A stretch of DNA of 64,000 bases from Rariglobus sp. (GTDB taxonomy: Bacteria; Verrucomicrobiota; Verrucomicrobiia; Opitutales; Opitutaceae). This document shows, piece by piece, positions 11,506-54,510 of the stretch. The DNA is taken from contig JAQSWS010000027.1 in NCBI GenBank assembly GCA_029266495.1, positions 1 through 64,000 on the forward strand. The letters run 5' to 3'. Each line of letters starts with the position of its first letter. The stretch's first letter is position 1. Made by a program: the position numbers and the translations under genes. The notes beneath the pieces are model-generated. The model worked only from the letters and a program-made list of their open reading frames with translations. It did not search any database and had not been told where the DNA came from.

Positions 11506-11666
11506 TGCGCGTTAGTGCATGATCGTTGGCCGTCGGTGCAACTGAAAACTCACCTTACCGAACGGGAGGATTGACCGCAAAAACCCCGTCGCCCCGGCAA
11601 AAATCCATTACACTGCGTCACGTTTGACTCCGCCGCGTGTCCGCGCTTCCTTCCCCTTCTTCCTTG

Positions 11667-36624: not shown

Positions 36625-38277
36625 ATGCGCATCGGCCTCGCTCAGCTCAACACCATCGTCGGCGACCTCCCCGGCAACCGCCGGCTCATTCTGGACGCCT
36701 ACCACACGCTCGTCGCCCAAGGCGCCGAACTGGTCGTCTACCCCGAGCTGGTGATCTGCGGCTACCCGCCGCGCGACCTTCTCTTTAAACGGAGCTTCGT
36801 CCCCGACATCGAGGCCACGCTCGCCGACATCGCCGCCCGCATCGGTGACGTGCCCGCGCTCATCGGCACCGTCGCCGTCAATCCCGCCGCATCCGGCCGC
36901 CGCTTCTTCAACGCCGCCGCCTTCTGCCAGCAGGGCCGCATCGTCAGCGTCGCCCACAAATGCCTCCTGCCCACCTACGACGTGTTCGACGAGGATCGTT
37001 ACTTCGAGCCCGCCGCATCGCCCCCGCTGGTCCTCGCCCTCAACGGCAAAAAAATCGGCATCACCATTTGCGAGGACATCTGGACGCATCCTCAACTCGC
37101 CCCGCGCAACCTCTACCATTTCGAACCGCTTCAGTCGCTCGCCGGCCAGGGTCTCGACCTGATGGTCAACCTCTCCGCCAGCCCCTGGCATCATGGCAAA
37201 GGCCACCTGCGCACCCAGCTCGTCACTGACGCCGCCCGCCAGCTCGGCTGCCCGGTCGTCTACGTCAACGCGGTCGGCGGCAACGACGAGCTCATCTTCG
37301 ACGGCCGCAGCCTCGTATCCGGTTCTCAAGGACAGATCATCGCCTCCCTTCCGCCGTTTGTGCCGTCCGTTCGGGTGGTCGACCTCGCATTGTCCTCCGC
37401 ACCCGCATCCGCCGCCACCGGTGACGACCCCGTCAACGAACTCGCCGACGTTCACGCCGCCCTCGTTCTCGGCCTGCGCGACTATGCGCACAAGAGTGGT
37501 TTCAAAAAGGCCCTGATTGCCCTTTCCGGCGGCATCGACTCCGCCCTTGTCGCCGAACTGGCCGTCGAAGCCCTCGGGGCGGACAATGTCATCGGTGTCT
37601 CGCTGCCCTCGGCGATCTCATCGCAACACTCCCGCGACGACGCGCGCGATCTCGCCCGCAATCTCGGCATTCGTTTCGAGACGATCGCCATCGCCGACAC
37701 CGTGGCCGCCGCCGAGACCTCGCTCGGCCCGGTCTTCGCCGGGCGCCCGCGCGACGTGACCGAGGAAAACATCCAGGCCCGCGTGCGCGGCGTCGTGATG
37801 ATGGCGCTCTCCAACAAATTCGGCGCGCTCCTCCTCACCACCGGCAACAAGAGCGAGGTCGCCGTCGGTTATTGCACGCTCTACGGCGACATGTGCGGCG
37901 GACTCGCCGTGATCAGCGATGTCTTCAAGACGCAGGTCTACGACCTCTGCCGGTGGATCAACCGCGATCGCGAGATCATCCCCGTCAATACCATCGAGAA
38001 ACCGCCCAGTGCCGAGCTGCGCCCGGGCCAGGTCGACCAGGACAGCCTCCCACCCTACGAGATCCTCGATGCGATCCTGAAAGGCTACGTCGAGGAAGGC
38101 CTCTCCCGCCGCGACCTCGTCGCCCGGGGTTTTGCCGAGGTGGTCGTCAACGACATCGTCCGCAAGGTCGACCTCAACGAATACAAACGAAAGCAAATGG
38201 CCCCCGGCCTGAAGATCACCCCCCTTGCCTTCGGCGTCGGCCGCCGCATCCCCATCGTCCAAAAATACGTAAATTGA
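36625..38277 (+). CDS. nadE: Glutamine-dependent NAD+ synthetase
   Basis: 550 residues. An N-terminal nitrilase-fold glutaminase domain (Glu in [13 protein letters not shown], Lys in [12 protein letters not shown], Cys in ITICEDIW) frees ammonia, which the C-terminal domain uses to amidate deamido-NAD+. The ATP-binding loop is [38 protein letters not shown] follows. It is upstream of the pigment cluster, 70 nt before its first gene, but is probably housekeeping. Confidence 0.95.
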
Positions 38278-38280
38278 GCC

Positions 38281-38297
38281 GCGGTCGTTTTGACCGC
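38281..38297 (+). other. Short hairpin after nadE
   Basis: GCGGTC-GTTTT-GACCGC lies 4 nt past the nadE stop. It has no T-run, so it is a weak terminator at best, and may be another GC-rich palindromic repeat. Confidence 0.35.
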
Positions 38298-38347
38298 TGA
38301 TGTCCGGCCATGGACGCCAGATGTTCCTTAGCCGTCAACCCTCCGTC

Positions 38348-39679
38348 ATGGTCTCTCACAATCACACCCACGACTACGACGTCATCGTCATCGGCGCCGG
38401 CCCCGCCGGCAGTTCCGCCGCCACGCGCACCGCCGCGGCCGGCCTGAAGACCCTCGTCGTCGAAAAAGAAACGTTCCCCCGTTTCCGCATCGGCGAATCC
38501 CTCCTCCCCTACGGAAACACCCTCCTGCGCGAAACTGGCGCCTGGCCGAAAATCGAAGCCGCCGGGTTCATCCGCAAATTCGGCGCGAGCTTTCACCTCG
38601 CCGACGGCTCCGCCGACAAGGAAGTCATCTTTGCCAGCGGCATCGTTCCCGGCCTCGACCAGACGTTCCAGGTCGAGCGCTCCAAGTTCGACGCACTCCT
38701 GCTCGATCACGCCCGCGAAACCGGCGCCGAGGTGCGCACCGCCACGACCGTTCGTGCCATCTCGAGCGATGCCGGCGGCCACCGCGTGTCACTCGCCGCC
38801 GCCTCCGCAGGCAATCCCGACGACACGACAGTGGTCACCGCGCGCTGGATCATCGATGCCGGCGGACGCGATCAGCTCTTCCCCAACGAACTCAAACGCG
38901 TGCTCGATCCGTCTCCATTTCCCAAGCGCGTGGCGATTTACAATCATTTCAAAAACGTCCCGCGCGCCGAAGGCTCCGCCGGCGGGCACACCGTGATCGT
39001 CCGCCTGCCCGATGGCTGGTTCTGGATCATCCCCATCGACGCCGAACGCACCTCGGTCGGTCTCGTCACCACGGTCGATGCCATGCGCGAGGCCCGCCTG
39101 CAGCCCGCCGACCTCTTCACCCGCGCGGTCGAGAGCTCCTCGAAGCTTCGTGACCTCATGGCCGGCGCCGCACCCGTGATGTCGTTTCACGTCACCAGCG
39201 ACTACAGTTATTTCCGCCGTGAACTCGCTTCCGGACGCCTCGTGCTCGCCGGCGATGCGGGTGGTTTCTTCGATCCGATTTTTTCCTCGGGCGTCTACAT
39301 GGCCTGTCATTCGGCCAAGCTCGCGTCCGAACTCGTCGTGCGCGCCCACCGCGAAAAACGTCCGCTCACGGCCCGTGAATGCCGTCGCTACACCCGCGCG
39401 GTCAAAACCCACGCCGGCGTCTTCCAGAAGCTCATCGCCGCCTTTTACGACAACGCCAGTTTCTCCGTCTTCATGTGTCCCCGGCCGCCCCTTGGGCTCG
39501 CTCCCGCGATCACTTCGATCGTGGCCGGACACTCCAAACTTACCTGGCCCATTTGGTGGCGCTTCAAGATTTTTCTCCTCGTGTGCCGGCTTCAGCACCA
39601 CCTTCCTATGGTGCCTGATTTACGTATCGCGGAGACGGCTCCAACGGGGTCAACCCGTGTCCGTCCGTCCGTCGCATGA
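38348..39679 (+). CDS. Flavin-dependent halogenase-like oxidoreductase 1
   Basis: 443 residues from MVSHNHTHDYDVIVIG. FAD-binding GAGPAG at 16-21; FPRFRIGESLLP at about 43; RKFGASF with Lys77 at the position of the catalytic Lys of flavin halogenases; WFWIIP (224-229), matching WxWxIP; GRLVLAGDAGGFFDPIFSSG, the second FAD motif. WxWxIP with GxGxxG is the classic flavin-halogenase pair, but some relatives are simple hydroxylases or reductases. In a pigment cluster it could halogenate the aryl head or polyene as in xanthomonadins; it could also be a desaturase-like enzyme. Start 38348 chosen over 38300. Overlaps the next gene by 4 nt. Confidence 0.75.
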   Translation: MVSHNHTHDYDVIVIGAGPAGSSAATRTAAAGLKTLVVEKETFPRFRIGESLLPYGNTLLRETGAWPKIEAAGFIRKFGASFHLADGSADKEVIFASGIVPGLDQTFQVERSKFDALLLDHARETGAEVRTATTVRAISSDAGGHRVSLAAASAGNPDDTTVVTARWIIDAGGRDQLFPNELKRVLDPSPFPKRVAIYNHFKNVPRAEGSAGGHTVIVRLPDGWFWIIPIDAERTSVGLVTTVDAMREARLQPADLFTRAVESSSKLRDLMAGAAPVMSFHVTSDYSYFRRELASGRLVLAGDAGGFFDPIFSSGVYMACHSAKLASELVVRAHREKRPLTARECRRYTRAVKTHAGVFQKLIAAFYDNASFSVFMCPRPPLGLAPAITSIVAGHSKLTWPIWWRFKIFLLVCRLQHHLPMVPDLRIAETAPTGSTRVRPSVA

Positions 39680-41268
39680 TTAACACCTCCTCTTCCATCG
39701 ACTCCCCCCGCTGGGATGTGATCGTTCTCGGCGGTGCCCTTTCGGGCGCATCCACCGCCTGCCTGCTCCTCCGCCGCAATCCCCGCTTGCGCGTGCTCAT
39801 CGTCGAGCGCAGCGAACAGTTCAAACGTCGGGTCGGCGAATCCACCGTCGAGGTCAGCAGCTACTTTCTCGGCCGTGTGCTCGATCTCACCGGGCATCTC
39901 CACGAGAAACATCTCACCAAGCAGGGCCTGCGTTTCTGGTTTAAAAACGAACACACCACCGCGCTCGACGAGTGCAGTGAGACCGGCCCGGGTTACAACG
40001 TCCGCCTTCCCGGATACCAGGTGGACCGAGCCGTCCTCGACGAAGAAGTCCTCTCGCGCGCCATCGCCTCCGGGGCCCGCCTGCTGCGTCCCGCCCGCGT
40101 GACCGACATTACGCTCGTGCCCGGCGGCGAACAGGCCGTCGCCTGGACTTCCGACGACGGACGCTCCGGCACCGAGACCGCTCGCTGGCTGGTGGACGCC
40201 TCCGGCGTGGCCGCGTTGCTCGCGCGCAAAAACGGCTGGCTCGTCCCCAACACCGCGCATCCCATCGCCTCCGCCTGGAGCCGCTGGACCGGCGTGAAAA
40301 ATTGGGATTCGCGCGAACTTGCCGAGAAATTCCCCGCCTGGTCCCGCCGCGCCCACGGCTGGCGCAACAACGCCACCAACCACCTCGTCGGTCTCGGCTG
40401 GTGGGCGTGGTTCATCCCGCTCAAGGGCGGCGACGTGAGCGTGGGCGTGGTCTTCGATCAGCGGATCGTCGACCTGCCCGAGGGCGATCACCTCGGCGAA
40501 CGTCTTCGCACGATGCTGCTGGAGCACCCCATCGCGAAAGAGTTGCTGGCCGGCGCACACTGGCAGGAGGGCGACGTGCACTTCCGTCGCAATCTCGCCT
40601 ATCGCTCCTCCACATTTGCGGGGGATGGTTTCGTCCTCGTGGGCGACGCGGCCGGTTTCATCGATCCGTTTTATTCGCCGGGCATGGACTGGATCAGCTA
40701 CACCGCCAGCGCCGCCGCCGCCCTCGTGGACGGCTCCGCCCGCGGCAAACCCAGGGCCCCGCGCATCGCCCGCCACAACGAGCTGTTTTCCACCAGTTAC
40801 GACCGGTGGTTCCGCGCGGTGTATCAGGATAAATATTACTACATGGGCGACTTCGAGCTCATGACCCTGGCCTTCCGCCTCGACCTCGGGCTCTACTATT
40901 TCGGCGTCGTCTCCCAACCCTTCCGGCGTGGAGCGGAGGCATTGGAAATCCCGACGTTCTCCGGCCCCTACACCAAGCTGCCGTTCCGTTTTATCGCCTG
41001 CTACAACCGCCGGCTCGCCGCCATGGCCCGCTCCCGCCTCCAGCGGGGCGTCTGGGGCCGGCGCAATCACGGCGGCTACTTTGGCTTTCGCAGCTACGAA
41101 CTCACCTGGACCCTGCCGTTCCGTCTGCTCGGCGTGATCGCTCTCTACCTGCGCCTTGAGCTGTGCGAAGGCTGGCGCACCTGGTTCACCGCCCCGGTCA
41201 CCCGGGAAAAACATCTGCCCGAGGCATCGAAAACAACTATCGCCACCGAGAGTGTTGCCCATCCTTAA
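39676..41268 (+). CDS. Flavin-dependent halogenase-like oxidoreductase 2
   Basis: 530 residues. N-terminal Rossmann segment DVIVLGGALSGASTACLLL, a degenerate GxGxxG; RRVGESTVEVSSYFLGRVLDL; Lys82 in LTKQGLRFWF; WAWFIP at 243-248, matching WxWxIP; FVLVGDAAGFIDPFYSPGMDW. The C-terminal 130 residues are longer than in the first enzyme and carry hydrophobic, membrane-proximal helices (RLLGVIALYLRLEL). Two distinct halogenase-like proteins in tandem, not recent copies. The start overlaps the previous stop (ATGA), so expression is coupled. Substrate unknown; the polyene or aryl acyl-ACP is likely. Confidence 0.75.
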   Translation: MINTSSSIDSPRWDVIVLGGALSGASTACLLLRRNPRLRVLIVERSEQFKRRVGESTVEVSSYFLGRVLDLTGHLHEKHLTKQGLRFWFKNEHTTALDECSETGPGYNVRLPGYQVDRAVLDEEVLSRAIASGARLLRPARVTDITLVPGGEQAVAWTSDDGRSGTETARWLVDASGVAALLARKNGWLVPNTAHPIASAWSRWTGVKNWDSRELAEKFPAWSRRAHGWRNNATNHLVGLGWWAWFIPLKGGDVSVGVVFDQRIVDLPEGDHLGERLRTMLLEHPIAKELLAGAHWQEGDVHFRRNLAYRSSTFAGDGFVLVGDAAGFIDPFYSPGMDWISYTASAAAALVDGSARGKPRAPRIARHNELFSTSYDRWFRAVYQDKYYYMGDFELMTLAFRLDLGLYYFGVVSQPFRRGAEALEIPTFSGPYTKLPFRFIACYNRRLAAMARSRLQRGVWGRRNHGGYFGFRSYELTWTLPFRLLGVIALYLRLELCEGWRTWFTAPVTREKHLPEASKTTIATESVAHP

Positions 41269-41288
41269 TCCGCCCCCGCCGTCTCCAC

Positions 41289-41693
41289 ATGGCTTCAGAC
41301 AACACTCCCTCCGCTCCCGCAAAACCCAAACCGGTCAAATCCGGCCCGCTCGACAAGTTTTCCGCTGCCGTGCGTGACGCACACGCACGGTTCCTCGCCA
41401 CCGGCGATATCGACGCGCTCGACACGGTTGTGCTCGCCATCGTGCGCGACCACCAGCCCGCGGAGGCCCGCGCCGCCACGCCCGCCGCACCGCCCGATTC
41501 CGCGTTGCTGATCGGCGACCTTGGCTTCGACTCGCTGGCCCTCGCCGAAATCGTTTTCTTCATCGAGGATCTTTACCAGGTCTCCGTCAGCAACGAGGAG
41601 CTCATGCGTATCACCACGGTCGGCGAACTTCGCGGCTTCATCCGCATCAAGGTCGCCTCCTCCGGCGCCTCGTCGCAGCCACCTTCCTCCTGA
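41289..41693 (+). CDS. Acyl carrier protein-like protein 1
   Basis: 134 residues, long for an ACP: about 45 N-terminal residues rich in Ala, Pro and Lys precede the domain. The phosphopantetheine site is LIGDLGFDSLALAEIVFFIE with Ser82, and the helix III region VSVSNEELMRITTVGELRGF follows. It should carry the growing acyl chain. It follows the second flavin enzyme by 20 nt and precedes the ketosynthase by 7 nt. Confidence 0.85.
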   Translation: MASDNTPSAPAKPKPVKSGPLDKFSAAVRDAHARFLATGDIDALDTVVLAIVRDHQPAEARAATPAAPPDSALLIGDLGFDSLALAEIVFFIEDLYQVSVSNEELMRITTVGELRGFIRIKVASSGASSQPPSS

Positions 41694-41700
41694 CGCCCTC

Positions 41701-42963
41701 GTGTCACGCTCCGCCCTCATCACCGGCCTCGGTTTCATCACAAGCATAGGAAACGACGCCACCTCCGTCTCCGCCAGCCTTCGCGCCGGCCGGCATGGCA
41801 TGGTGGTGCACCCGCTGTGGGACAATCCCAACGTCGCCGTCAAAGTCGCCGCGCCCGTGCGCGGGTTTTTCGTCGATTCGGCAAGCTGGCGCGACTGGAC
41901 CTGGCCGGAACGTTACGAACTGCCGCGCGAAACGCTCCGCAGTCTCGCGCCTCACGGCGTGTATGCCTTCTGCGCCCTTGAACAGGCCCTCGCCGACGCC
42001 GGCCTCACCAAGGCCGACCTCACGGATGGCTCCACCGGTTTGTTCTGCGCCTCCGCCGGCTCGGCGTTCATGCAGTATCACCACCTCTCCCAGGCGCATG
42101 CCGGCAACTTTGAGCGCGGCAATCCCATGGGCGTCGTTTCCGCCATCGCCGGCACGCTCAACTTCAACCTCGCGGCCCACTACGGCATCACCGGCGCGGT
42201 CACCGGGTTTGTCTCCGCCTGCGCCTCATCGAGCCACGCGATCGGCTACGCGCTCGACGAAATCCGTCTCGGCCGCCAGGAGCGCATGATCATCGTCGGC
42301 GCCGAGGAGTTGAACGCCGATACCATCCTGCCGTTCGCTCCGATGCGCGCGCTCTCCGTCAACCCCGACCCCGCGACCGCCTCGCGTCCGTTTGACTCCG
42401 CACGCGACGGGTTTGTCGGCACCGGCGGCGCGGTCGTGCTCATCATCGAGGAGGCTTCGCTCGCCCGCCGTCGCAACGCGACCGCCTATGCCGAGATCCT
42501 CGGCTGGGGCCAGGCTTCCGACGGTCACAGCGTCGCCTCCTCCCATCCCGAAGGCGCCGGTCTCCGCAACGCCATGCAACGCGCCCTCCGCGACGCCGCC
42601 GTCGCGCCTGCGCAGATCGATTACGTCAACGCCCATGCCACCTCGACACCGGTCGGCGACCGCGCCGAGGCGCTCGCCCTGCGAGCCGTGTTCTCCGACG
42701 CCGGCGCCCGTCCGGCTGTGAGCAGCACCAAGGGGCTCACCGGCCACGGTCTTTCCATGGCCGGCGCGATGGAGGCCGGCTTCTGCGCCCTCGCGCTCCG
42801 CGAAGGCTGGATGCCGGGCAACCCCCACCTTGTTAACCCGGATAACTCCTGCGATGGCCTGAACCTTCCACGCGAAACGTTGTCCGTTGCTCCAGCGCTC
42901 GTGCTCAACAACAGCAGCGGCTTCGGCGGCAGCAATGTCTGCCATGTTCTCCGTCGTGTTTGA
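41701..42963 (+). CDS. Beta-ketoacyl-ACP synthase (elongating ketosynthase 1)
   Basis: 420 residues with GTG start 7 nt after the ACP stop. A FabF-type thiolase fold with complete catalytic triad: Cys174 in SACASSSHAIG, His312 in NAHATSTPVGD, His349 in SSTKGLTGHGLSMAGAMEAG. The C-terminal NNSSGFGGSNVCHVLRR is typical. It would condense malonyl-ACP units onto the aryl starter. Related to aryl-polyene ketosynthases by context, but FabF itself cannot be excluded by sequence alone. Confidence 0.9.
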   Translation: MSRSALITGLGFITSIGNDATSVSASLRAGRHGMVVHPLWDNPNVAVKVAAPVRGFFVDSASWRDWTWPERYELPRETLRSLAPHGVYAFCALEQALADAGLTKADLTDGSTGLFCASAGSAFMQYHHLSQAHAGNFERGNPMGVVSAIAGTLNFNLAAHYGITGAVTGFVSACASSSHAIGYALDEIRLGRQERMIIVGAEELNADTILPFAPMRALSVNPDPATASRPFDSARDGFVGTGGAVVLIIEEASLARRRNATAYAEILGWGQASDGHSVASSHPEGAGLRNAMQRALRDAAVAPAQIDYVNAHATSTPVGDRAEALALRAVFSDAGARPAVSSTKGLTGHGLSMAGAMEAGFCALALREGWMPGNPHLVNPDNSCDGLNLPRETLSVAPALVLNNSSGFGGSNVCHVLRRV

Positions 42964-43006
42964 CCCGCGGATCCCCTTTTCTCACTCCCACCCTGTCATC
43001 CCGTTC

Positions 43007-43282
43007 ATGTCCGACCCGCTCATCTCACAACTCAAGGTCCTCGTCGTCGAAACCCTCCGCCTCGAAGACATCGTCGCCGCCGACATTCCCGATGACGAAC
43101 CGCTCATCGGCGGCGGCCTCAGCCTCGACTCCATCGATGCACTCGAACTCGTCGTGCGCCTGGAAAAAGAGTTCGGAATCAAGATCAGCAGCAGCGAGGA
43201 ATCCCGCACCGCCCTCGCCAGCATCGGATCGCTCGCCGCCTACATCCGCGAACACGCCACCGCCGACCGCCTTCCCTCTTAA
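43007..43282 (+). CDS. Acyl carrier protein 2
   Basis: 91 residues, the normal ACP length. Phosphopantetheine Ser42 lies in IGGGLSLDSIDALELVVRLE; EKEFGIKISSSEESRTA follows as helix III. Two ACPs with different sequences are a known feature of aryl polyene clusters. It precedes the second ketosynthase across an 86-bp gap filled by a hexamer-repeat hairpin. Confidence 0.9.
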   Translation: MSDPLISQLKVLVVETLRLEDIVAADIPDDEPLIGGGLSLDSIDALELVVRLEKEFGIKISSSEESRTALASIGSLAAYIREHATADRLPS

Positions 43283-43366
43283 TCTCATTCCCGTTCTCTT
43301 GCTCAGTCCCGTTCGTCAGCAATAACACGAGGGAACGAGCAAGAGTAAGAGAACGGGAACGAACAG
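43283..43366. repeat. Hexamer-based inverted repeat in pigment cluster
   Basis: Arms at 43284-43316 and 43328-43364 are made of degenerate 6-bp units (for example GGAACG, AGCAAG, AGTAAG, AGAACG) and are imperfect complements. It fills the only large gap inside the first half of the cluster and ends next to the start at 43369. Same design as 16231-16311. Confidence 0.75.
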
Positions 43367-43368
43367 AA

Positions 43369-44478
43369 ATGAGCGCATCCCCTTCGCCGATTCGCATCGC
43401 CGCCTGCGGCGCGCTCACCGCCTTTGGCGATGAGTCCGTCACGCTGGCCGCCTTGCTCGACGGGCACCGCGCCTTTGCCTTGGTTCCCGTGCTCGGCCGC
43501 GAAGGCGGCGACTCCGTCCCGCTCGCCCTGTGCGCCGGCCACAATTATGACGAGACGGTTCCCCCCGGCTGGCTCGCACCGCTCCGCACGCTCGTCGATC
43601 GCATCCCCGGCGACGGATGGGGTTCTCCGCGACGTCCGGTCTTTGTCACGAGCAGCAATTTCGGCGTCGGCAGCCTGCACGCGTTTCGCCGCACGGGCGA
43701 GTCCGCCCACCTTGCCCATGGCACGCCTTTCCGCTGCGTGGACTGGCTCGCCGGTCAATTCGGATGGGGTCCGAACGTCACCACCTTTTCCCACGCCTGC
43801 GTCTCCGCCCACCTGGGCTTGTTGCAGGCCTCGCGCGTGCTCGCCGCCGGTCTCGCCGATGAAGCCCTCGTCTTCTCGTTCGATTTTCTCAGCCCGTTTG
43901 TCGCCGGCGGATTTCACGCGTTAAAAATCCTCAACGCCGACCTGCCCACGCCGTATCAGGAGCGCGAAACCGGCTCCATCGGTCTCGGCGATGGCGCCGC
44001 CTTCACGGTGCTCACCCGTGATCACGGCGACTTCACCCTCGCCGCCCAGAGCCTGCACAACGAGATGCACCACTTCACGGCCAATCAGGCCGACGGCACC
44101 GGCTTTGACGCCTGCCTCGCTCCGCTGCTGGGCGCAACCGCCGGGCGCCGCTTCTGGCTCAAGGGCCACGGCACCGGCACGCTTGAAGCCGGCCGGCTCG
44201 AGGCCGGTGTGCTCGCCCGTCATTTTTCCGGCGCTCCCCTGGTCGGCTGGAAGGGCAGCCTCGGCCATACGCTTGGCAGTTGCGGCCTCGTCGAGCTGAC
44301 CATCGCCGCCGCGGCGATTCGCAAGGGCCGCGCTCCCGGCACCGTCGGCAGCGCAGGCCCCGCTTTCACGCCGGATGTCGCCCTGGAGCCTTTCGATCTC
44401 CACGCATTTGACAGCGTTCTCTGCACCAGCAACGCCTTCGGAGGCGCCCACGCCGCCCTCCTTCTCAGCCATGCTTGA
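43369..44478 (+). CDS. Beta-ketoacyl-ACP synthase (ketosynthase 2)
   Basis: 369 residues, shorter than FabF. All three catalytic residues are kept: Cys144 in FSHACVSAHLG, His267 in LKGHGTGTLEAG, His300 in KGSLGHTLGSCGLVE, and the ending is CTSNAFGGAHAALLLS. Divergent from ketosynthase 1, so it may form a heterodimer with it or act at a different step, such as the first condensation. Its stop overlaps the next gene by 8 nt. Confidence 0.85.
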   Translation: MSASPSPIRIAACGALTAFGDESVTLAALLDGHRAFALVPVLGREGGDSVPLALCAGHNYDETVPPGWLAPLRTLVDRIPGDGWGSPRRPVFVTSSNFGVGSLHAFRRTGESAHLAHGTPFRCVDWLAGQFGWGPNVTTFSHACVSAHLGLLQASRVLAAGLADEALVFSFDFLSPFVAGGFHALKILNADLPTPYQERETGSIGLGDGAAFTVLTRDHGDFTLAAQSLHNEMHHFTANQADGTGFDACLAPLLGATAGRRFWLKGHGTGTLEAGRLEAGVLARHFSGAPLVGWKGSLGHTLGSCGLVELTIAAAAIRKGRAPGTVGSAGPAFTPDVALEPFDLHAFDSVLCTSNAFGGAHAALLLSHA

Positions 44479-46850: not shown

Positions 46851-47674
46851 CGCCTTCGTCCACCCACCTCGTCCTCATCCCGAGCTACAACACCGGCGCC
46901 CTGCTCCTCCCCACGGTCGAAGAGGCGCTCCGCCACTGGCAACCCGTGTGGGTCGTGATCGACGGCAGCACCGACGCGAGCGCACCAAGCCTCGTTGCCC
47001 TCGCCGCCCGTGAACCCGCGCTTCGCGTCCTCCACCGTCCGCGCAATGGCGGCAAAGGCGCCGCCGTTCTCACCGGCGTCGAGGCCGCCCTCGCCGCCGG
47101 CTTCACCCATGTCCTCACGATGGACTCCGACGGACAACATCCCGCAAGTCACATCGCGCCTTTCATGGACGTCTCGCAAAGCGATCCCGCCGCGCTCGTG
47201 CTGGGGCTTCCCGTCTTCGGACCCGAAGCCCCGTTCGAACGGCTTCAAGGCCGCAAGCTCAGCGTCGCCCTCGCGCATTTTCAAACGTTCAGCCGCGCCA
47301 TCGGCGACCCGCTCTTCGGCTTCCGCGTGTATCCGGCGGCACCGCTGCGTGCCGCGCTCCTGCAAACCAGCGCCGCCCGCGGCTTCGACTTCGATCCCGA
47401 GATCGCCGTGCGCATGGTCTGGGGCGGCGTGCCCACCCTCAACATCCCCGCACCCTGCCGTTATCTCTCCAAGGCCGACGGAGGCGTCTCTCATTTCAAC
47501 TATCTGCGCGACAACCTGAAGATGATCTGGCTGCACACGCGCCTCATCAGCCAGCTGTTACTTTGGCGCTGGCCTGCTGTCTTGAGGATTCGAACGAAAA
47601 CAAATCGCCAACAATGCGCCGGGATTGGCGCGCCAGCCCAGGAGTCGGCAAAGGAGTTTACCACGAGTAAATGA
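46847..47674 (+). CDS. Glycosyltransferase family 2
   Basis: 275 residues. GT-A fold: HLVLIPSYNTGALLLPTVEE, VWVVIDGSTDASAP, RPRNGGKGAAVLTGVEAAL, and the DxD-like metal site in VLTMDSDGQHPASHI. It probably transfers a sugar to the lipid-linked pigment. The C-terminal 40 residues are Lys/Arg rich and of uncertain frame. ATG 46847 overlaps the previous stop (ATGA); the TTG at 46841 is not preferred. A 99-bp gap follows with no feature seen. Confidence 0.82.
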   Translation: MTPSSTHLVLIPSYNTGALLLPTVEEALRHWQPVWVVIDGSTDASAPSLVALAAREPALRVLHRPRNGGKGAAVLTGVEAALAAGFTHVLTMDSDGQHPASHIAPFMDVSQSDPAALVLGLPVFGPEAPFERLQGRKLSVALAHFQTFSRAIGDPLFGFRVYPAAPLRAALLQTSAARGFDFDPEIAVRMVWGGVPTLNIPAPCRYLSKADGGVSHFNYLRDNLKMIWLHTRLISQLLLWRWPAVLRIRTKTNRQQCAGIGAPAQESAKEFTTSK

Positions 47675-47773
47675 CCGACGACGACGACGCCGCCGGATCA
47701 TGCTTCAAGACCAAGCAGAATTGATGATCTATTTTCGACCAAGTCCCCTTGTGTTCGCAGTCCCCCGCGCCTC

Positions 47774-48385
47774 ATGACCTTTCGCCTTTTCGTTTTTCTT
47801 CTGCTCGCGATCCCCGCGTTCGCCGAACCTTACGCCGCCGAACTCTCCGACACCTGGCGTGCGCGCCTCGTCGAACTCACAAAGCCGCGGACGATCACCG
47901 CCACGTTCAGCGAAAGCCGCCACACTCCGCTCAAACGCGTTCCTGTCGTTGTCACCGGCACGGTCCGCATTTATCGCGAACGCGGCCTCAGCCTCTCCTA
48001 TGACCAGAAGCACGCGCCCCTCATCATTCTCGATGACCGCGGGCTCCTCCTCCGCCATCCCGACGGACGCGAGCAATCCGCACCTCCCGAAGCCGAAAAC
48101 GACCTGCGCCTCCTCCATGCCTTGTTCGCGTTCGACCTGGTCACCTTGGAAAAATCCTACGCGCTCGTCGCGTCGGACTCTCCCGACGGCGCCTGGACGC
48201 TCACCTTCACCCGGCGTCCCGATTCAAACGCCGGCTACCGCGAACTCATTCTTTCAGGCAACGCCGCCCACCTTGCTGCGATCACTCTCGCAAAAACCCC
48301 GAATCTAAAAACCGCGATCACCCTCGCTTCGCCGCAGCTCAACTCCGTGTTCAACTCCGACGAGCTCGCCCGTTATTTCCGTTAA
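47774..48385 (+). CDS. LolA-like outer-membrane lipoprotein carrier
   Basis: 203 residues with a signal peptide (MTFRLFVFLLLAIPAFAEPY, cleavage after FAE or AFA). The LolA-like start TKPRTITATFSESRHTPLKR, then GTVRIYRERGLSLSYDQ, LLRHPDG and YRELILSGNA fit an open-barrel lipid carrier. LolA-like proteins occur in aryl polyene clusters, presumably moving the pigment lipid across the periplasm. It is 2 nt before the MMPL exporter gene. Confidence 0.8.
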   Translation: MTFRLFVFLLLAIPAFAEPYAAELSDTWRARLVELTKPRTITATFSESRHTPLKRVPVVVTGTVRIYRERGLSLSYDQKHAPLIILDDRGLLLRHPDGREQSAPPEAENDLRLLHALFAFDLVTLEKSYALVASDSPDGAWTLTFTRRPDSNAGYRELILSGNAAHLAAITLAKTPNLKTAITLASPQLNSVFNSDELARYFR

Positions 48386-48387
48386 GC

Positions 48388-50694
48388 GTGCCTGGTTCCA
48401 AACACTACACCTTGGTCGCCCTCTTTGCGTTCGTCGCTCTATGCGGCGCATGGCTGCTTTCGCTCGACCCCCGCGAACACTTCACGACTGACGTCACCGA
48501 ACTCCTCCCGGCCAACGAACGCGACCCCGAGGCCCGCCTCGCGCTCTCCCTCGTTCATGACCGCCAGAGCCGGGTCGTGCTGGTCGCGTTGGACGCTCCC
48601 GCCGGCACTTCCGCCGCTGCGCTCGCCAGCGCTGCGCGCACCCACGCCGACACGCTCCTCGCCTCCCGCGCCTTTGTCACCGCCCACCCGCTCGCCGACC
48701 AAACCTGGCAACACACACTCGGACGTCTGTTGCACGCCCGCCGCTTCGATCTCCTCCTGCCCGGCTGGCTCACCACCCAGCGCGATGCCTACGCCGCGGA
48801 CAACACTACGGTCCCCTTTCCCGACTGGCTTGCGGCACGCGCCACCGCCGCCCTGGACGCCCACCTCGCCTCGCCCGCCGCCGCCGCCACGACCGAGCTC
48901 GTCGCTTCCGATCCCCTGCTTCTGCTCGTCGCACTGGCCGACCAAAGCGCCTCGCTTGCCGCCGCTCCGGCTGCATCGCCCACACGCGCTCTCGTCTGGG
49001 CCGAGACCCGCGAGGGTCCCCTCACGGAAGCCGGCCAGCAACCCGTCTTCGACGCCCTCGCCGCCGCCGAGACCGCCGCCCGCGCCCATGTTCCCGAACT
49101 CGTCGCACATTTCACCGGCGTCGCCCGTTTCGCCGCCGCCGCGAAGGCCTCCACGCGCAGCGAGATCACCCGCCTTAATACCATCGCCATCGCCTGCGTC
49201 CTGGCTCTGACCGCCCTTTTTCTTCGCCGCTTTTACTCCCTCCTTCACCTGCTACCTGTCATCTTGATCGCCACGCTCGGGGCCACGGCAATCACCACGC
49301 TCGTCTTCCCGCGCGTGCACGTGCTCGTCTTCGTGCTGGGTTCTCTCCTCTCCGGCGTGGCCGTGGATTACGCCTTTCAACTCGTCCTCGCCCGCCGCGA
49401 AAACGAACCCTATCCCGCGCGCCTCCGGCGCCTTGCCCTCCCGCTCCTTGGCGGTGCCGGCACCACCTTCGCCGGTTTTCTCGTCCTCAGCGTTTCCGAA
49501 CTCCCGCTCGTGCGTCAACTCGGCGTCTACGTCGCCGCCGGCATCGTCTGCGGCCTGGTCGCCACGGTCCTTTATTTTTCCCTCTTTCCCCGCCTCGACT
49601 TCGCCCCGCGCCACCCGTCCCTCCGTTTCGCGTTGCCGAACCGCATCCGTCTTCCGCTGCTGGTCGTGCTCACCGCCCTTTCTGTTTTCGGCCTTTCCCG
49701 GCTCCACTGGCACGACGACCTTCGCAACCTCGAATATCCCTCGCCCGCGCTTCGCGCCGAGGATGCCGCCCTTCGCACCGCCTTCGGGCAAACCGACGCC
49801 GGCGCCACACTTCTCACCCGCGGCGCCACCTACGCCGAGGCCCGCTCCCGCTGGCAACAACTCTCCGCCGGCGCCCCCGCCAATGCTCCTCTTTCCAGTA
49901 TAGCCTCGTTGCTTCCCGTCCCCGAGGATTACCGCGCCGCCACCACACCTGAAACTCGGGCGCAACTCGCCGCCTTCCTCCCGTCCTTCCTCGCCGCCGC
50001 CAAAGCCGCCGGTTTCGAAGCCGAGGCCTTCGCTCCTTTCCAACGCGACTTCACCGCTTACCTCAACGCCCCGTCGCCCGGCTATGAACCCCTCCTTCGC
50101 GACACCCTCGCCAGCCTTCCCGGCCCGCTCGCCTTGCTCGCCCATTCAGACGAGGAGGGCGTCTGGTTTCTCTCCACCGCACCGCGAGCCTTCGCGATTC
50201 CCTCCGCTGCCGAAGGCACCTTGTCCCTCTCGGGCATCGAGGGACTCAACCATCTCTTCTCCCGCTATCGCGCCGCCACCGCCCGCTTGAGCCTGGTGGG
50301 CATCCTCGCGCTCGTCGTCATCTCCTGCGCCTTGCACGGCCCGCGCCTTGGTCTGCGCACCGCCGCGCTGCCCCTGCTCGCCACCGGACTTGCCTTCGGT
50401 GTCCTCGCTTTGCGCGGCGAAACGTTTGGCCTCTTCCATCTGCTCGGCGCACTCCTCGGCGTCTGCCTCGCCGACGACTACGCTCACTTCGCCCACATCG
50501 ACGATCCCGCCCACCCGCAAGCCCGCACCGCCATCCGTCTTTCCGGCCTGACCACCGCCGCCTCGTTTGCCGTGCTCATGACCAGCGAAATCCCCGCCGT
50601 TACCGCCCTCGGCGCCACGGTCACCCTCATCGTTGTGTTCGCCCTCGTCTTTGTGGAAACCGACCTCTTCTCGCTCCACGGCCATCATGCCTGA
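48388..50694 (+). CDS. MMPL-family (RND) exporter
   Basis: 768 residues, GTG start. Two repeated membrane halves, each with a first helix, a large periplasmic loop and about five further helices: YTLVALFAFVALCGAWLL, LNTIAIACVLALTALFL, then in the second half IRLPLLVVLTALSVFGL and LVGILALVVISCALHG. Residues like GVAVDYAFQLVLARR and CLADDYAHFAH lie in the helices used for proton relay. MMPL proteins export lipids. It should extract the finished lipid and hand it to the LolA-like protein. Confidence 0.88.
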   Translation: MPGSKHYTLVALFAFVALCGAWLLSLDPREHFTTDVTELLPANERDPEARLALSLVHDRQSRVVLVALDAPAGTSAAALASAARTHADTLLASRAFVTAHPLADQTWQHTLGRLLHARRFDLLLPGWLTTQRDAYAADNTTVPFPDWLAARATAALDAHLASPAAAATTELVASDPLLLLVALADQSASLAAAPAASPTRALVWAETREGPLTEAGQQPVFDALAAAETAARAHVPELVAHFTGVARFAAAAKASTRSEITRLNTIAIACVLALTALFLRRFYSLLHLLPVILIATLGATAITTLVFPRVHVLVFVLGSLLSGVAVDYAFQLVLARRENEPYPARLRRLALPLLGGAGTTFAGFLVLSVSELPLVRQLGVYVAAGIVCGLVATVLYFSLFPRLDFAPRHPSLRFALPNRIRLPLLVVLTALSVFGLSRLHWHDDLRNLEYPSPALRAEDAALRTAFGQTDAGATLLTRGATYAEARSRWQQLSAGAPANAPLSSIASLLPVPEDYRAATTPETRAQLAAFLPSFLAAAKAAGFEAEAFAPFQRDFTAYLNAPSPGYEPLLRDTLASLPGPLALLAHSDEEGVWFLSTAPRAFAIPSAAEGTLSLSGIEGLNHLFSRYRAATARLSLVGILALVVISCALHGPRLGLRTAALPLLATGLAFGVLALRGETFGLFHLLGALLGVCLADDYAHFAHIDDPAHPQARTAIRLSGLTTAASFAVLMTSEIPAVTALGATVTLIVVFALVFVETDLFSLHGHHA

Positions 50695-52045
50695 CGTCCT
50701 CGCCCAGTGGACGCGCCTCGTCCGTCAGAACCCCGCCGCCATCGCGCTCACCGAGTCCGTCACGGATCGGACCTGGACGCGTGCCGGACTCGACGCCGAA
50801 GCCCTCGCCTGGCCCGAAAACCTCTCCGGTCAACGGGTCACCTTTGCCCTTCCCAACGGCGCCCGCTGGTTCGCTGTATTCATCGGCTTGTTACGCGCCG
50901 GCGCCGTTCCCGTCCCCCTTGACCCCGCCGAACCCGCCGCCTCCCAACTCCAGCTCGCCGCCTCCGCCGGCGCCTCCTTCGCCTGGATCGACGGCCGCCT
51001 GTCCCCGATCCAGTGTCACCTATTAGGTGACACTTCCTTCGGGCCCCTTCCCAATAGTCCCGGGAAAAAGCGTCACCTAATAGGTGACACCGGGTCGAAG
51101 ATGTGCCTCGTCAAACTCACCTCGGGCAGCACTGGAAAACCCCGTGCGCTCGCGTTCACCGCCGCGCAGATGATCGCCGACGGACGCCAGGTGTGCACCA
51201 GCATGGGCATCACACCCGACGACGTAAACTTTGCGGTCATCCCGTTCGGCCACTCCTACGGACTCGGCAATCTCGTGATGCCGCTCCTCCTTCAAGGCAC
51301 CGCGATCGCCTGTTCCGGCGTGCCGCTGCCCCACGTGCTCGCCGCGGACATCGCCCGCTGGCGACCCACCGTGTTCCCAGCCGTGCCCGCGTTGCTGCGC
51401 GTCCTTGCACAGGCTGACCTGCCCGCCGACGCGCTCTCCAGCCTCCGCACCGTGATCTCCGCCGGCACCCCGCTGCCTGCCGAAGTCGCCCAGGCCTTTT
51501 TCAAAAAATTCAACCTGCGCCCGCACAGCTTCTACGGGTCCAGCGAAACAGGCGGCATCACCTACGACCGCACCGGCGAAGCCACGCTCGCGGGACGCAG
51601 CGTCGGCACTCCGCTTGAAGGTGTCATGCTCACGCCTGTTCGCGGCGGACGCATCCGCGTCGCCAGCGCCGCCGTTCACGGCCGCGGCACGTTCATCCCC
51701 GCCGACCGCGTCGCTTTCAATGAACACGGCGAACTCGTGCTCCAGGGCCGCGCCGGCCGACTCGTGAAAATCGCCGGGCGCCGCCTCGACCTCGGCGACC
51801 TCGAACGCGTGTTGCGTGCCCTGCCCGATGTGCGGGACGCGTTCGTCTCGCTTCACCCGCAAAATCCCGACGAACTCGCCACCGTGCTCGCCACCTCGCT
51901 CGACACGGCCTCCGTCCGCGCCTTGCTCCGTCGTGAACTCGCCACGTGGAAAGTCCCCCGTCGCATCGTGGCCGTCACGGAGTTTCCGCTGACCGCCCGC
52001 GGCAAGCCCGACACCCGCGCGTTGCAAGCGCTGCTCACCCGCTGA
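50687..52045 (+). CDS. AMP-forming acyl/aryl-acid ligase with palindromic insertion
   Basis: 452 residues. The P-loop LTSGSTGKPRAL (about 144-155) is followed by FGHSYGLGNLVMPLL, FYGSSETGGITY, and, near the end, GRAGRLVKIAGRRLDL and a C-terminal RGKPD catalytic-Lys segment. It adenylates an acid for loading onto CoA or ACP. With the chorismatase nearby, the substrate is probably 3- or 4-hydroxybenzoate. Residues about 109-137 (HLLGDTSFG, HLIGDTG) are encoded by paired palindromes at 51012-51090 and have no counterpart in the family. Both A3 and later motifs are intact. Confidence 0.87.
   Translation: MPDVLAQWTRLVRQNPAAIALTESVTDRTWTRAGLDAEALAWPENLSGQRVTFALPNGARWFAVFIGLLRAGAVPVPLDPAEPAASQLQLAASAGASFAWIDGRLSPIQCHLLGDTSFGPLPNSPGKKRHLIGDTGSKMCLVKLTSGSTGKPRALAFTAAQMIADGRQVCTSMGITPDDVNFAVIPFGHSYGLGNLVMPLLLQGTAIACSGVPLPHVLAADIARWRPTVFPAVPALLRVLAQADLPADALSSLRTVISAGTPLPAEVAQAFFKKFNLRPHSFYGSSETGGITYDRTGEATLAGRSVGTPLEGVMLTPVRGGRIRVASAAVHGRGTFIPADRVAFNEHGELVLQGRAGRLVKIAGRRLDLGDLERVLRALPDVRDAFVSLHPQNPDELATVLATSLDTASVRALLRRELATWKVPRRIVAVTEFPLTARGKPDTRALQALLTR
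51012..51090. repeat. Paired palindromic elements within AMP-ligase gene
   Basis: A 23-nt perfect palindrome at 51012-51034 (core TCACCTATTAGGTGA) and a second at 51072-51088, GTCACCTAATAGGTGAC, form exact 19-bp inverted copies (51013-51031 and 51072-51090), about 40 nt apart. Both lie in-frame in the coding sequence. The core matches the mnmA insertion. Confidence 0.9.
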
Positions 52046-52048
52046 TCC

Positions 52049-52705
52049 ATGCGCGCCGCTCACGACACTCCGTCCCTCCGCACGCGCATCGTCAGCCATG
52101 TGTGGCTCAAGGCCCTCGTCACACCGCTCTTCATGGTGGTGTTCTTCATCATCTATTTTGCGGTGCTGCGGCACCCGGGTTCAACGCCGGTGGAGATTCC
52201 TCGCACCGCGCTGGATCACTGGATCAGTTTTCAACCGCTCGCACTCATTCCCTACGCCTCGCTCTGGCTTTACGTGATCCTGCCGACGGCGCTGATGGTG
52301 AGCTTCCGCGAGTTGATCGGTTATACGATCGGAGCAGCCGCCCTCAGCGCGACCGGTCTGGTCATCTTCTATGTGTGGCCAACGATCACACCGCCCGCCG
52401 ATATCGATTGGACGGCCCATCCCAGCATCCAGTTTCTCAAAAACATGGACGCCTCCGGCAACGCCTGCCCGTCCCTCCATGTCGCCTTCGCCGTTTTTAC
52501 CGCGGTCTGGCTCGGCCGTATGTTGCGCCGCCTGGGTGCGGGCCGGTCCCTTCATGTGCTCAACGTGATCTGGGCCGTCGCGATCCTTTACTCCACCCTG
52601 GCCACCCGTCAGCACGTCGCCATTGACATGATCGCAGGCACGTTCCTCGGTGGATTCGCGGCCTGGCTCAACCTGCGGCTCTGCCCGGAGCCGGTCGAAT
52701 CCTGA
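52049..52705 (+). CDS. PAP2-superfamily membrane phosphatase
   Basis: 218 residues with about five membrane helices. The PAP2 signatures are GNACPSLHVAFAVFTAVWLG (motif with His) and YSTLATRQHVAIDMIAG (catalytic His, Asp). It hydrolyses lipid phosphates on the outer face of the inner membrane, perhaps the phosphate of the polyene-lipid intermediate. The start lies 3 nt past the ligase stop, and the gene shares one base with the next start. Confidence 0.85.
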   Translation: MRAAHDTPSLRTRIVSHVWLKALVTPLFMVVFFIIYFAVLRHPGSTPVEIPRTALDHWISFQPLALIPYASLWLYVILPTALMVSFRELIGYTIGAAALSATGLVIFYVWPTITPPADIDWTAHPSIQFLKNMDASGNACPSLHVAFAVFTAVWLGRMLRRLGAGRSLHVLNVIWAVAILYSTLATRQHVAIDMIAGTFLGGFAAWLNLRLCPEPVES

Positions 52706-53469
52706 TGCGTTTTTCGCTTGTTCACATCGCCTTCATCAAGCTCGCCGGCGCCGTGCTCGCGGCCACCGGATTTTCGTGGACGTGGGCCTTCGTGCTTTTT
52801 TTCGCCCCCGATCTTTGGGTGCTCTATCATGTGTTTATGCCAGGTGCGTCGGGCATCGTGCGCACGTTCACCCGGTTTCAAACCGCCCACCCCGAGGTCT
52901 GGCTCACGATTGACGATGGCCCCGACGAACAGGACACCCCGCGCATTCTCGATTTGCTCGACCGCCACCGGGCAAAGGCCACGTTTTTTCTCATCGGTGA
53001 GCGCGCCGCGCGCCGTCCCGATCTCGTTGCCGAGATCGCCCGCCGTGGTCACGAAATCGGGCACCACACCCATACGCATTGCGGCGCGACGTTCTGGTGT
53101 GCGGCACCCGGCCGGATCCACCAGGAACTCGACTCCTCATTTCCTACGCTGACACCGCCGGGCGGTCCGCGTCCGCACCGTTTCCGCGCTCCCGTCGGCA
53201 TCAAAAATCTATTTCTCGCGAAAGCGCTCGCCCGCCGAAGCCTCCTCTGCACCGGCTGGTCGGTTCGCAGCTTCGATTCGTTTTCCCACAATCCGGAAAA
53301 AGTCGCCAGGCGCGTCCTCCGTCAGGTGCGCCCCGGAGCCATCGTGCTGCTGCACGAAGGACCCTCGTTGCACCCGCACGTGCGCGTGACCGCCATCGCC
53401 CGGGTGCTCGAAGGCCTGGATACCCGCGGCCTCCGTTGCGTCATCCCGACCGACATGCAACTCCACTGA
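52705..53469 (+). CDS. NodB-type polysaccharide deacetylase
   Basis: 254 residues with one or two N-terminal hydrophobic helices. Catalytic and metal residues are visible: WLTIDDGPDEQDTPRIL (Asp pair), GHEIGHHTHTH (metal His), RFRAPVGIKN and VLLHEGPSLHPH. It removes N-acetyl groups from a sugar, perhaps the sugar attached by the glycosyltransferase, on the outer face of the inner membrane. The final gene of the cluster; it abuts the convergent chorismatase gene without spacer. Confidence 0.87.
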   Translation: MRFSLVHIAFIKLAGAVLAATGFSWTWAFVLFFAPDLWVLYHVFMPGASGIVRTFTRFQTAHPEVWLTIDDGPDEQDTPRILDLLDRHRAKATFFLIGERAARRPDLVAEIARRGHEIGHHTHTHCGATFWCAAPGRIHQELDSSFPTLTPPGGPRPHRFRAPVGIKNLFLAKALARRSLLCTGWSVRSFDSFSHNPEKVARRVLRQVRPGAIVLLHEGPSLHPHVRVTAIARVLEGLDTRGLRCVIPTDMQLH

Positions 53470-54411
53470 TCAAACGTCCGCCGTCAGCGTTGCCTCGATC
53501 TCAATCAGCAAGGCCGATCGACAGATGTCGGAACGCAACCACGTCACGTGATCCGTCGGCCTGAACAATGCCTGGTCAAACGCTTTTTTCACCGCGTCAT
53601 AATCGGCCGCGTGGCGCAGATAGACTTTGAAGTGCCGCTGCCATCCCGCCGCCGGGCCTTCGCCCAGCCGGTCACCCAGGTCACAAACGCGGGAAATGAT
53701 TCGCAGGTTATCGAGCGTGCAGGCGATCTGCCCTTCCAGATCACCCACGGCGACCGTCGCATGTCCTTTGATCGCCGCGGTCCCCGAAATAAAAACATGG
53801 CGTCTCCCGGCCGCTTCCACCCGGGTCGCGCGTGAAAAACTCGGCGGACGCGGGCCGTGCTCCGGCGGATACGCATAGGCGGGCACCTGCTCGGGATTCT
53901 CAATGTGCTCGGGTTCGCCGGGTGTCGCCGCAAACACCACCACGAGCCGCCCGTCCACGCCACCCACGGCGGACGCCGCCGGCAAATGCTGTTCGTAACC
54001 CCCGCCCAGCCGCTCCTCGAAGGCGAGCGAGCGTCCGCGGCAAAATGCCCGGTAGTTCTCAAGGCCGCTCGCGTCCGGCTCATTGATCCGCGGCACATAG
54101 TTCCAGACGCGCGCCAGCCTGCGTCCGCCGATCAAGGCAAGCAGCCGCCGGTAAAGCCGGTGCGCCTGGCCCCCCAGGTCGACTTCGGCGACCTCGTCGA
54201 TCGCCCCGACCAGAAGCCCGTCACGCTCGAACAAACGCCATCCATCGTTCGGGGAAACCTCCCTCAATCCGTGAAAAATCGTCTCGGCCGTCGCCCCGCC
54301 CAAGACCTGCAAGGGAACATTAAACGCATCCGTGGCGTCCATGTCCGAACCAAACCGCACGACGAAATCGGTGGACGGGGACCGGTTGAGCGAAGGGGTG
54401 ACGGATAACAT
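53470..54411 (-). CDS. Chorismatase (FkbO/XanB2-like), RidA-related
   Basis: 313 residues from the ATG at 54409-54411. The N-terminal part contains ARVWNYVPRINEPDASGLENYRAFC, and the C-terminal RidA-like domain has FSRATRVEAAGRRHVFISGTA, KGHATVAVGDLEGQIACTLDN and LLIEIEATLTADV with the terminal Glu of the active site. This is the pattern of chorismatases such as XanB2 that make 3- and 4-hydroxybenzoate for xanthomonadin. It should supply the aryl starter for the polyene. A different member making a dihydro-dihydroxybenzoate is possible. Confidence 0.85.
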   Translation of the reverse strand: MLSVTPSLNRSPSTDFVVRFGSDMDATDAFNVPLQVLGGATAETIFHGLREVSPNDGWRLFERDGLLVGAIDEVAEVDLGGQAHRLYRRLLALIGGRRLARVWNYVPRINEPDASGLENYRAFCRGRSLAFEERLGGGYEQHLPAASAVGGVDGRLVVVFAATPGEPEHIENPEQVPAYAYPPEHGPRPPSFSRATRVEAAGRRHVFISGTAAIKGHATVAVGDLEGQIACTLDNLRIISRVCDLGDRLGEGPAAGWQRHFKVYLRHAADYDAVKKAFDQALFRPTDHVTWLRSDICRSALLIEIEATLTADV

Positions 54412-54510
54412 TACGAGAACGGACAACACGAAGGCCCTCCTGGTTCATCAAGGCAAATTATCCCCTTCCGGGTTTCACCCCGTTTTGCACCTGCGCCAGG
54501 TATTCTCATT

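Follow-up and report, generated by a model that had tools for sequence, protein, structure and literature searches.

What does a bacterium of the family Opitutaceae (Verrucomicrobiota) make with a gene cluster that combines ketosynthases of aryl polyene type, a chorismatase and two halogenase-like flavoenzymes? The cluster lies in Rariglobus sp., within a stretch of 64,000 nucleotides (bases 1-64000 of contig C129, in a genome of 4.89 Mb and 172 contigs), which is hereafter called the window. Based on the analysis reported here, we propose with good confidence that this locus makes an aryl-polyene-type cell-envelope lipid, probably halogenated, whose head ring comes from chorismate.

Results

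Layout of the locus

Fifteen genes follow one another on the plus strand between 38300 and 53469, with 7 of their 14 junctions overlapping (by 4, 8, 4, 7, 4, 8 and 1 nt), and together with a convergent chorismatase gene at 53470-54429 they form a single locus. The identities of the parts, including two acyl carrier proteins (ACPs), two ketosynthases (KS1 and KS2) and a ketosynthase-like partner (KSn), rest on family, PDB-sequence or fold matches, as follows.

38300-39679, plus strand: Hal1, halogenase-like protein dependent on flavin adenine dinucleotide (FAD), nearest solved proteins ChlB4, PltA and CmlS (Pfam Trp_halogenase 7e-22; PDB phmmer 1.5e-53)
39676-41268, plus strand: Hal2, second FAD-dependent halogenase-like protein, with GGALSG replacing GxGxxG (Pfam 3e-14; PDB 3e1t, RadH)
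41289-41693, plus strand: ACP1 (Pfam PP-binding 3e-6)
41701-42963, plus strand: KS1, FabB/FabF-like ketosynthase with a putative ApeR-like role (PDB profile, tree)
43007-43282, plus strand: ACP2 (Pfam PP-binding 1.2e-8; NCBIfam PRK09184 65.7 bits, cut-off 70)
43369-44478, plus strand: KS2, ApeO-type ketosynthase (PDB profile)
44471-45148, plus strand: KSn, ApeC-type chain-length-factor-like partner (PDB profile; AlphaFold model and Foldseek)
45145-46098, plus strand: LpxL/LpxM-like acyltransferase (AlphaFold model, Foldseek best LpxM 4.4e-11, then PatA)
46092-46850, plus strand: PlsC-like acyltransferase (Pfam Acyltransferase 7.2e-14)
46847-47674, plus strand: family 2 glycosyltransferase, GT2 (Pfam Glycos_transf_2 5.6e-18)
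47774-48385, plus strand: LolA-like carrier (Pfam LolA 1.1e-4, slightly under cut-off)
48388-50694, plus strand: MMPL/RND-like exporter (Pfam MMPL 4.6e-4, slightly under cut-off)
50687-52045, plus strand: AMP-forming acyl ligase, proposed hydroxybenzoyl-ACP ligase (Pfam AMP-binding 5.6e-41)
52049-52705, plus strand: PAP2 phosphatase (Pfam PAP2 1.4e-10)
52705-53469, plus strand: polysaccharide deacetylase (Pfam 4.7e-25)
53470-54429, minus strand: chorismatase, convergent (Pfam FkbO_Hyg5-like_N 1.7e-21; PDB Hyg5; residues, tree)
54557-55795, plus strand: Na+/H+ exchanger, possible member (Pfam 1.4e-55)

Both the run of about 15 co-directional, overlapping genes and the parts list of the original prediction (ACPs, ketosynthases, ketosynthase-like partner, acyltransferases, glycosyltransferase, LolA, MMPL, ligase, PAP2, deacetylase and chorismatase) were borne out by these matches. 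The cluster is real and beyond chance, as relatives share much of its gene order: the core order ACP2-KS2-KSn-LpxL-PlsC-GT2-LolA-MMPL-AMP ligase is kept in 9 of 10 Opitutaceae relatives, the tenth (G015) being rearranged. A set for envelope attachment and transport (acyltransferases, GT2, LolA, RND) is present, with LolA and MMPL as marginal matches, and the LpxL/LpxM-like acyltransferase gave no Pfam match up to E 1. The Na+/H+ exchanger, which adjoins the chorismatase in 4 of the 10 Opitutaceae relatives, may belong to the locus.

The ketosynthases

The tie to aryl polyene synthesis comes from KS2 and KSn, which retrieve opposite halves of the same solved ApeO-ApeC complexes and so support the aryl polyene logic that had been read from the gene content. 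A KS2 profile built from 12 Opitutales genomes, and run against PDB sequences, gave chain 7f28_B at the top (6.3e-29) and 6qsp_A second (2.6e-21), and Cys144, His267 and His300 of KS2, which we take to be its catalytic residues, are invariant in all 12. The profile of KSn, a protein of 225 aa, has just two PDB matches at E <= 1, namely 7f28_A (3e-4) and 6qsp_B (4.7e-4), and its AlphaFold model (mean predicted local distance difference test score 81) returned 6qsp_B, 7f28_C and 7f28_A as the top three in Foldseek. Entry 6qsp is titled there as an ApeO-ApeC complex, and 7F28 is the AbApeO-AbApeC complex (PMC8358021; this and the other papers are cited from excerpts of their text). Therefore, KS2 by profile, and KSn by profile and fold, match the ApeO-ApeC ketosynthase/chain-length-factor pair, and the two would act as such a pair.

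KS1 is nearest to FabB/FabF in the PDB profile search (best 7pps, FabB, 1.7e-92), which ranks the solved ApeR structures 4ewg and 7f27 below them. Among the 37 ketosynthases of a tree, the sister of KS1 is an Opitutaceae ketosynthase on contig C157 (100/100), followed by two ApeR rows (93/86). The concern that the ketosynthases might fall with FabF of fatty acid synthesis thus applies to KS1, which is FabB/FabF-like as the ApeR of known clusters also is, and not to KS2.

The same genome holds other ketosynthases. On C157 (L178, G000:C157:1-18000), at 7076-9144, an ACP-FabA fusion gene is followed by a ketosynthase 58% identical to KS1, in surroundings which we take to contain glycosyltransferase-, sulfotransferase- and aminotransferase-like genes. 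A further ketosynthase domain lies in a 2117-aa open frame (L001, G000:C87:5460-9221), which is probably a type I polyketide synthase.

The chorismatase and the head group

The chorismatase matches solved Hyg5 (7.5e-41) and FkbO (1.7e-37) and scores above the Pfam FkbO/Hyg5-like cut-off, and at 197 bits it is below the NCBIfam TIGR04444 cut-off of 325. Its diagnostic residues Ala154, Gly216, Cys303 and Glu310 (AGCE) stand at Hyg5 places 173, 240, 327 and 334, where Hyg5 has GGCE and FkbO GAAE; it thus carries the Gly, Cys and Glu of the 3-hydroxybenzoate-forming Hyg5, without the two Ala of FkbO. The residues of class CH-II are given as Gly-164, Gly-231 and Cys-318 of Nat-hyg5, with the Glu as acidic active-site residue (PMC7170507), and the window enzyme departs from this set in that the second Gly and the Cys are kept and the first place is Ala. 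AGCE is read in 20/22 rows at class level, 61/68 named rows on the Verrucomicrobia side, 9/12 of the other named rows and 19/21 gammaproteobacterial rows (these include L185, the same gene as L154), so the Ala is common to the window enzyme and the latter, and GGCE occurs in 8/8 weak class matches and 4/4 plasmid-borne chorismatases.

In a tree of 62 chorismatases, wherein 20 gammaproteobacterial enzymes stand in for XanB2 (the XanB2 and CH-IV sequences were not included), a 100/100 branch splits the Opitutales and cyanobacterial chorismatases, with that of one gammaproteobacterial metagenome-assembled genome (MAG; L154), from all others. On the other side there are two clades, one made up of the 20 stand-ins (95/96) and one with Hyg5, FkbO and others (98/93). 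All 20 come from genomes with ApeO, and 11 of them have an ApeO homologue on their contig at a distance of no more than 24 kb. As to the outcome that the original prediction had counted against itself, a chorismatase outside the XanB2 group, the enzyme lies outside the clade of stand-ins, XanB2 not being among them, and it shares its Ala with nearly all gammaproteobacterial rows.

The product of a chorismatase is not predictable from sequence alone, according to the excerpted text of PMC3949708; from its family and residues, the window enzyme likely yields hydroxybenzoate. The named chorismatase loci, the best 80 of 354, comprise 11 cyanobacterial, 1 gammaproteobacterial and 68 other loci (two from one genome), the latter from Opitutaceae or other Verrucomicrobia except one labelled only 'bacterium'. 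In 59 of these 68, and in 0 of the 12 cyanobacterial or gammaproteobacterial ones, the chorismatase has an AMP ligase (at least 35% identity) no more than 3 kb away, which speaks for the predicted chorismate-derived head. No ammonia lyase was found among the 20 open reading frames (ORFs) scanned, as had been expected for a head not made by such an enzyme, a genome-wide search for it not having been made. Additionally, in six cyanobacterial loci (L141, L143, L144, L147, L149 and L156) the chorismatase stands beside an AMP ligase 24-28% identical to that of the window, and no other cluster gene matched.

The halogenase-like flavoenzymes

The lysine of flavin halogenases is catalytic, and the motifs considered here are diagnostic for these enzymes. 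Among the 21 rows of the Hal1 alignment (15 from Opitutales, two of them one gene, and 6 proteobacterial), GxGxxG, WxWxIP and the Lys are present in all, and FxxPxxSxG in 20, the remaining row being truncated. Hal2 keeps the Lys and FxxPxxSxG in 13/13 and WxWxIP in 12/13 rows, and has GGALSG or GGALAG as its nucleotide-binding motif. The two predicted WxWxIP flavoenzymes thus bear halogenase signatures, with halogenases as their nearest solved proteins, and the pigment is likely halogenated, though not in all relatives. Among the 10 Opitutaceae relatives, both genes occur in four (G042, G246, G024, G058), Hal1 alone in one (G226) and neither in the stretch read in four (G081, G117, G236, G015), with that side unread in one (G141); as only 4 of 10 show both, halogenation appears accessory. 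Elsewhere (L059/L060, G128:C28), a chorismatase of the same tree side neighbours a Hal2-like gene, and the stretch read gave no match to further cluster genes; this arrangement suggests halogenated hydroxybenzoate for another purpose.

Search for ketoreduction and dehydration

No ketoreductase (KR) or dehydratase (DH) family was found among the locus ORFs scanned. With Azospirillum and E. coli proteins as KR, DH and thioesterase queries (E <= 1e-3), just 3 of 61 KS2 stretches, some of them overlapping or from the same genome and many without the whole locus, gave a KR or DH match: an ApeI-like short ORF in two, both from families of the order other than the Opitutaceae, and a generic short-chain dehydrogenase/reductase (SDR; 30% identity) in L085. 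The ApeI-like ORF occurs in other Opitutales families in L058, L067 and L228, and just at E 0.006 in L064; the two that were scanned are under Pfam cut-offs. It sits between the PlsC and GT2 genes, which in the window share 4 nt, and was possibly lost in the Opitutaceae, whose stretches, like the window, gave no ApeI/ApeP dehydratase. As a control, 12 gammaproteobacterial stretches (one of them lacking a chorismatase, and two sharing a genome) gave KR in 7, DH in 9 and thioesterase in 2. Absence from the locus is hence weak evidence by itself, and absence of the thioesterase, whose query matched so few, says little.

Genome-wide, the best ApeQ match has 42-48% identity in all 35 Opitutales genomes, whether or not they carry the locus, and in the window genome, which holds 26 SDR matches, it adjoins a FabF-like gene. 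Among 14 gammaproteobacterial genomes with ApeO and chorismatase, 12 have an ApeQ match of 48-69% and 2 have none at E <= 1e-45; since the two ranges overlap at 48%, identity alone does not separate them. The lid motif is PGF with a longer lid in 30/30 aligned Opitutales KRs, and PGL or PGI with a shorter lid in 9 ApeQ rows, the significance of the lid residue (Phe in FabG) and lid length being that described in PMC8041823. A trans-encoded ApeQ was not found on inspecting the best KR per genome in 30 of the 35 genomes (13 of the 17 with KS2).

Away from the locus, the genome contains three FabA-like genes: a 473-aa frame on C32, a gene on C58 and the ACP fusion on C157 beside the ketosynthase. 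The fusion was rejected as an aryl-polyene-specific dehydratase, as it has matches in 119 of 120 family genomes, 109 of them at E <= 1e-40. The FabZ-like gene on C58 and its reductase neighbour were rejected as a satellite DH/KR pair because they sit with what we take to be OleA- and hydrolase-like genes. That region (L183, G000:C58:30500-50499) holds the FabA-family match at 9394-12856 together with its neighbours; presumably FabZ- and FabI-like genes there precede OleA-like and hydrolase-like ones, possibly a hydrocarbon locus.

Distribution and genomic surroundings

KS2 (E <= 1e-150) was found in 19 of 286 genomes of the class, namely 12 of the 30 of the window's family and 7 others of the order. 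The chorismatase (E <= 1e-40) occurs in 18 of these 19 and in 4 of the 267 others, a Fisher probability of 9e-24 that is indicative only, the 286 genomes being related by descent. The one KS2 genome without a close chorismatase (G069) also showed no Hal1, Hal2, ACP1 or KS1 in the 16 kb read. None of the 11 cyanobacterial and 1 gammaproteobacterial named chorismatase loci contains KS2. Nine of the 68 other named loci have no nearby AMP ligase, KS2 or MMPL; 3 of the 9 are under 6 kb, and in one, isolate EW11 (L122), some 9 kb separate the chorismatase from the core. Some of the gammaproteobacterial loci that hold both a chorismatase and ApeO/C (e.g. L209, L214) have GT2-, PlsC-, Hal1-, LpxL- and MMPL-like genes too.

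The range first given for the cluster began too early, as its first gene, NadE (36625-38277), is an NAD synthetase and was rejected as a member in favour of a housekeeping neighbour. The GC content at third codon positions (GC3) is 0.74-0.82 in the locus genes and 0.84 in NadE; the value for the chorismatase, 0.75, is among the lowest in the locus, and a codon-score gene caller overlooked this gene despite its clear relatives.

Discussion

Based on these findings, the following pathway can be proposed. The chorismatase would convert chorismate to 3-hydroxybenzoate, perhaps with 4-hydroxybenzoate, and pyruvate, upon which the AMP ligase could load the hydroxybenzoate onto an ACP, and KS1 and the KS2/KSn pair would add malonyl units. 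Ketoreduction and dehydration, the weakest step of the proposal, would be supplied from outside the locus, most likely by housekeeping FabG and a FabA/FabZ-type dehydratase. Hal1 and Hal2, judged by their motifs, may halogenate the ring and the chain. As in proposals for known aryl polyenes, the two acyltransferases and GT2 could then couple the chain to an anchor, either a lipid or a glycolipid, after which transport to the outer membrane would fall to the MMPL and LolA-like proteins.

Several observations weigh against this proposal. For the KS2 profile, 6qsp_A is barely better than FabF of H. pylori (4.3e-21), and the 37-ketosynthase tree does not join KS2, whose branch measures 4.34 changes per column, to ApeO; KS1 groups with the C157 ketosynthase, has the solved ApeR structures scoring under FabB/FabF, and is not universal, being seen in 6 of the 10 Opitutaceae relatives. 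LolA, MMPL and KSn are all under Pfam cut-offs. The E. coli, Lysobacter and Azoarcus clusters carry KR and DH genes, whereas none was found in the scanned ORFs of the window locus; a Lysobacter KR mutant lacks pigments (PMC3691225), and FabG of A. baumannii reportedly cannot replace ApeQ in vitro (PMC8041823, both from excerpts). The uneven presence of the halogenases and the weak ApeI-like ORFs bear on the halogen part and on the possible loss of a dehydratase, and not on the aryl-polyene-type assignment itself.

From the missing reductive genes it could be argued that the product is a chorismate-headed aryl polyketide lipid, unreduced or partly reduced, since no regular polyene arises without KR and DH. 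The rarity of KR or DH matches among the KS2 stretches, and best KRs that are only moderately similar to ApeQ in every genome and carry the Phe of FabG, fit this view, which we nevertheless consider unlikely: the ApeI-like ORFs hint that an ancestor was capable of reduction, both KS2/KSn and the envelope genes belong to the aryl polyene type, and enzymes acting in trans are plausible, as 2 of the 14 gammaproteobacterial genomes also lack an ApeQ match at the threshold used. A somewhat less improbable alternative, though still one that we doubt, is that the flavoenzymes are monooxygenases or other non-halogenases and the aryl polyene is unhalogenated. The altered GxGxxG of Hal2, the scores of both proteins far under the CmlS cut-off, the return of related oxidases such as QhpG in the same scans and the relatives with neither gene in the stretch read are in line with it, whereas WxWxIP, FxxPxxSxG and the Lys are kept in nearly all rows and the nearest solved proteins are halogenases. 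Least probable, in our judgement very unlikely, is an ordinary xanthomonadin cluster acquired horizontally from Proteobacteria. It would account for the common parts, including the chorismatase and halogenase, but the fully supported branch parts the window chorismatase from the 20 gammaproteobacterial ones, though the MAG L154 falls on its side, KS2 has a long branch of its own and, as weak evidence, GC3 is 0.74-0.82 in the locus genes and 0.84 in NadE. We retain the aryl-polyene-type, chorismate-headed envelope lipid as the preferred reading.

With the xanthomonadin and arcuflavin clusters of Xanthomonas and Azoarcus (arc), the locus shares a chorismatase, halogenase, AMP ligase, ACP, ketosynthase, GT2, acyltransferases, LolA, exporter, deacetylase and Na/H antiporter; the Azoarcus parts are those of the published cluster table, where arcG is the antiporter (excerpt of PMC3949708), and the Xanthomonas cluster holds a halogenase (excerpt of PMC3691225), a feature that the window has as judged by sequence. 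It differs in its chorismatase, which is outside the gammaproteobacterial stand-in clade, in its two halogenase-like genes and two ACPs, the Xanthomonas clusters being without a second ACP, and in that no KR or DH was found. With the Ape clusters of E. coli, Xenorhabdus and Acinetobacter it has in common the ApeO/ApeC pair, a FabB-like second ketosynthase, two ACPs, LolA, an RND exporter and acyltransferases, whereas E. coli draws its 4-hydroxybenzoate from the ubiquinone pathway and has ApeQ, ApeI/ApeP and ApeK. The enzyme resembles chorismatases CH-I to CH-IV (FkbO, Hyg5, XanB2) in family, catalytic Glu and the Gly and Cys of Hyg5, and differs from them in its own tree side with cyanobacterial enzymes (a tree without XanB2 and CH-IV) and in the Ala at Hyg5 Gly173. 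Flexirubin clusters follow the same aryl polyene carboxylic acid logic and differ by the ammonia lyase, which the scanned ORFs of the window lack; DarA and DarB were not searched for directly. Plasmid matches from Variovorax, Caballeronia and Janthinobacterium were dropped from the comparison, as they provided no usable aryl polyene reference. The locus is thus a divergent form that operates as aryl polyene systems do; we do not class it as a plain aryl polyene member because no KR or DH was found in it, nor as a xanthomonadin cluster because its chorismatase was compared with stand-ins for the XanB2 group.

The original prediction had not recognised this mix as described outside Proteobacteria. 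The locus does lie outside Proteobacteria, but aryl polyene clusters have already been predicted in Verrucomicrobia with antiSMASH, in Oceaniferula flavus (PMC9865893) and, with low similarity to known clusters, in Opitutales strain ASA1 (PMC12193912), as far as the excerpts of these papers go. In searches of open papers on xanthomonadin or chorismatase in Verrucomicrobia, and on aryl polyenes with halogenases or chorismate, no description of the present form was found.

In conclusion, the locus provides a chorismatase clade and a pair of halogenase-like enzymes for assay, and a form in which neither ApeQ nor ApeI/P was found makes the sharing of fatty-acid enzymes with a polyene synthase testable. 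Tentatively, and with somewhat less than even confidence, we suggest that the Opitutales may hold a line of chorismate-headed aryl polyene lipids that is both old and separate, with halogenation in some members, which would have its own chorismatase clade and no dedicated reductase or dehydratase, and which, contrary to the finding in A. baumannii, would use housekeeping FabG and FabA/FabZ-type enzymes.

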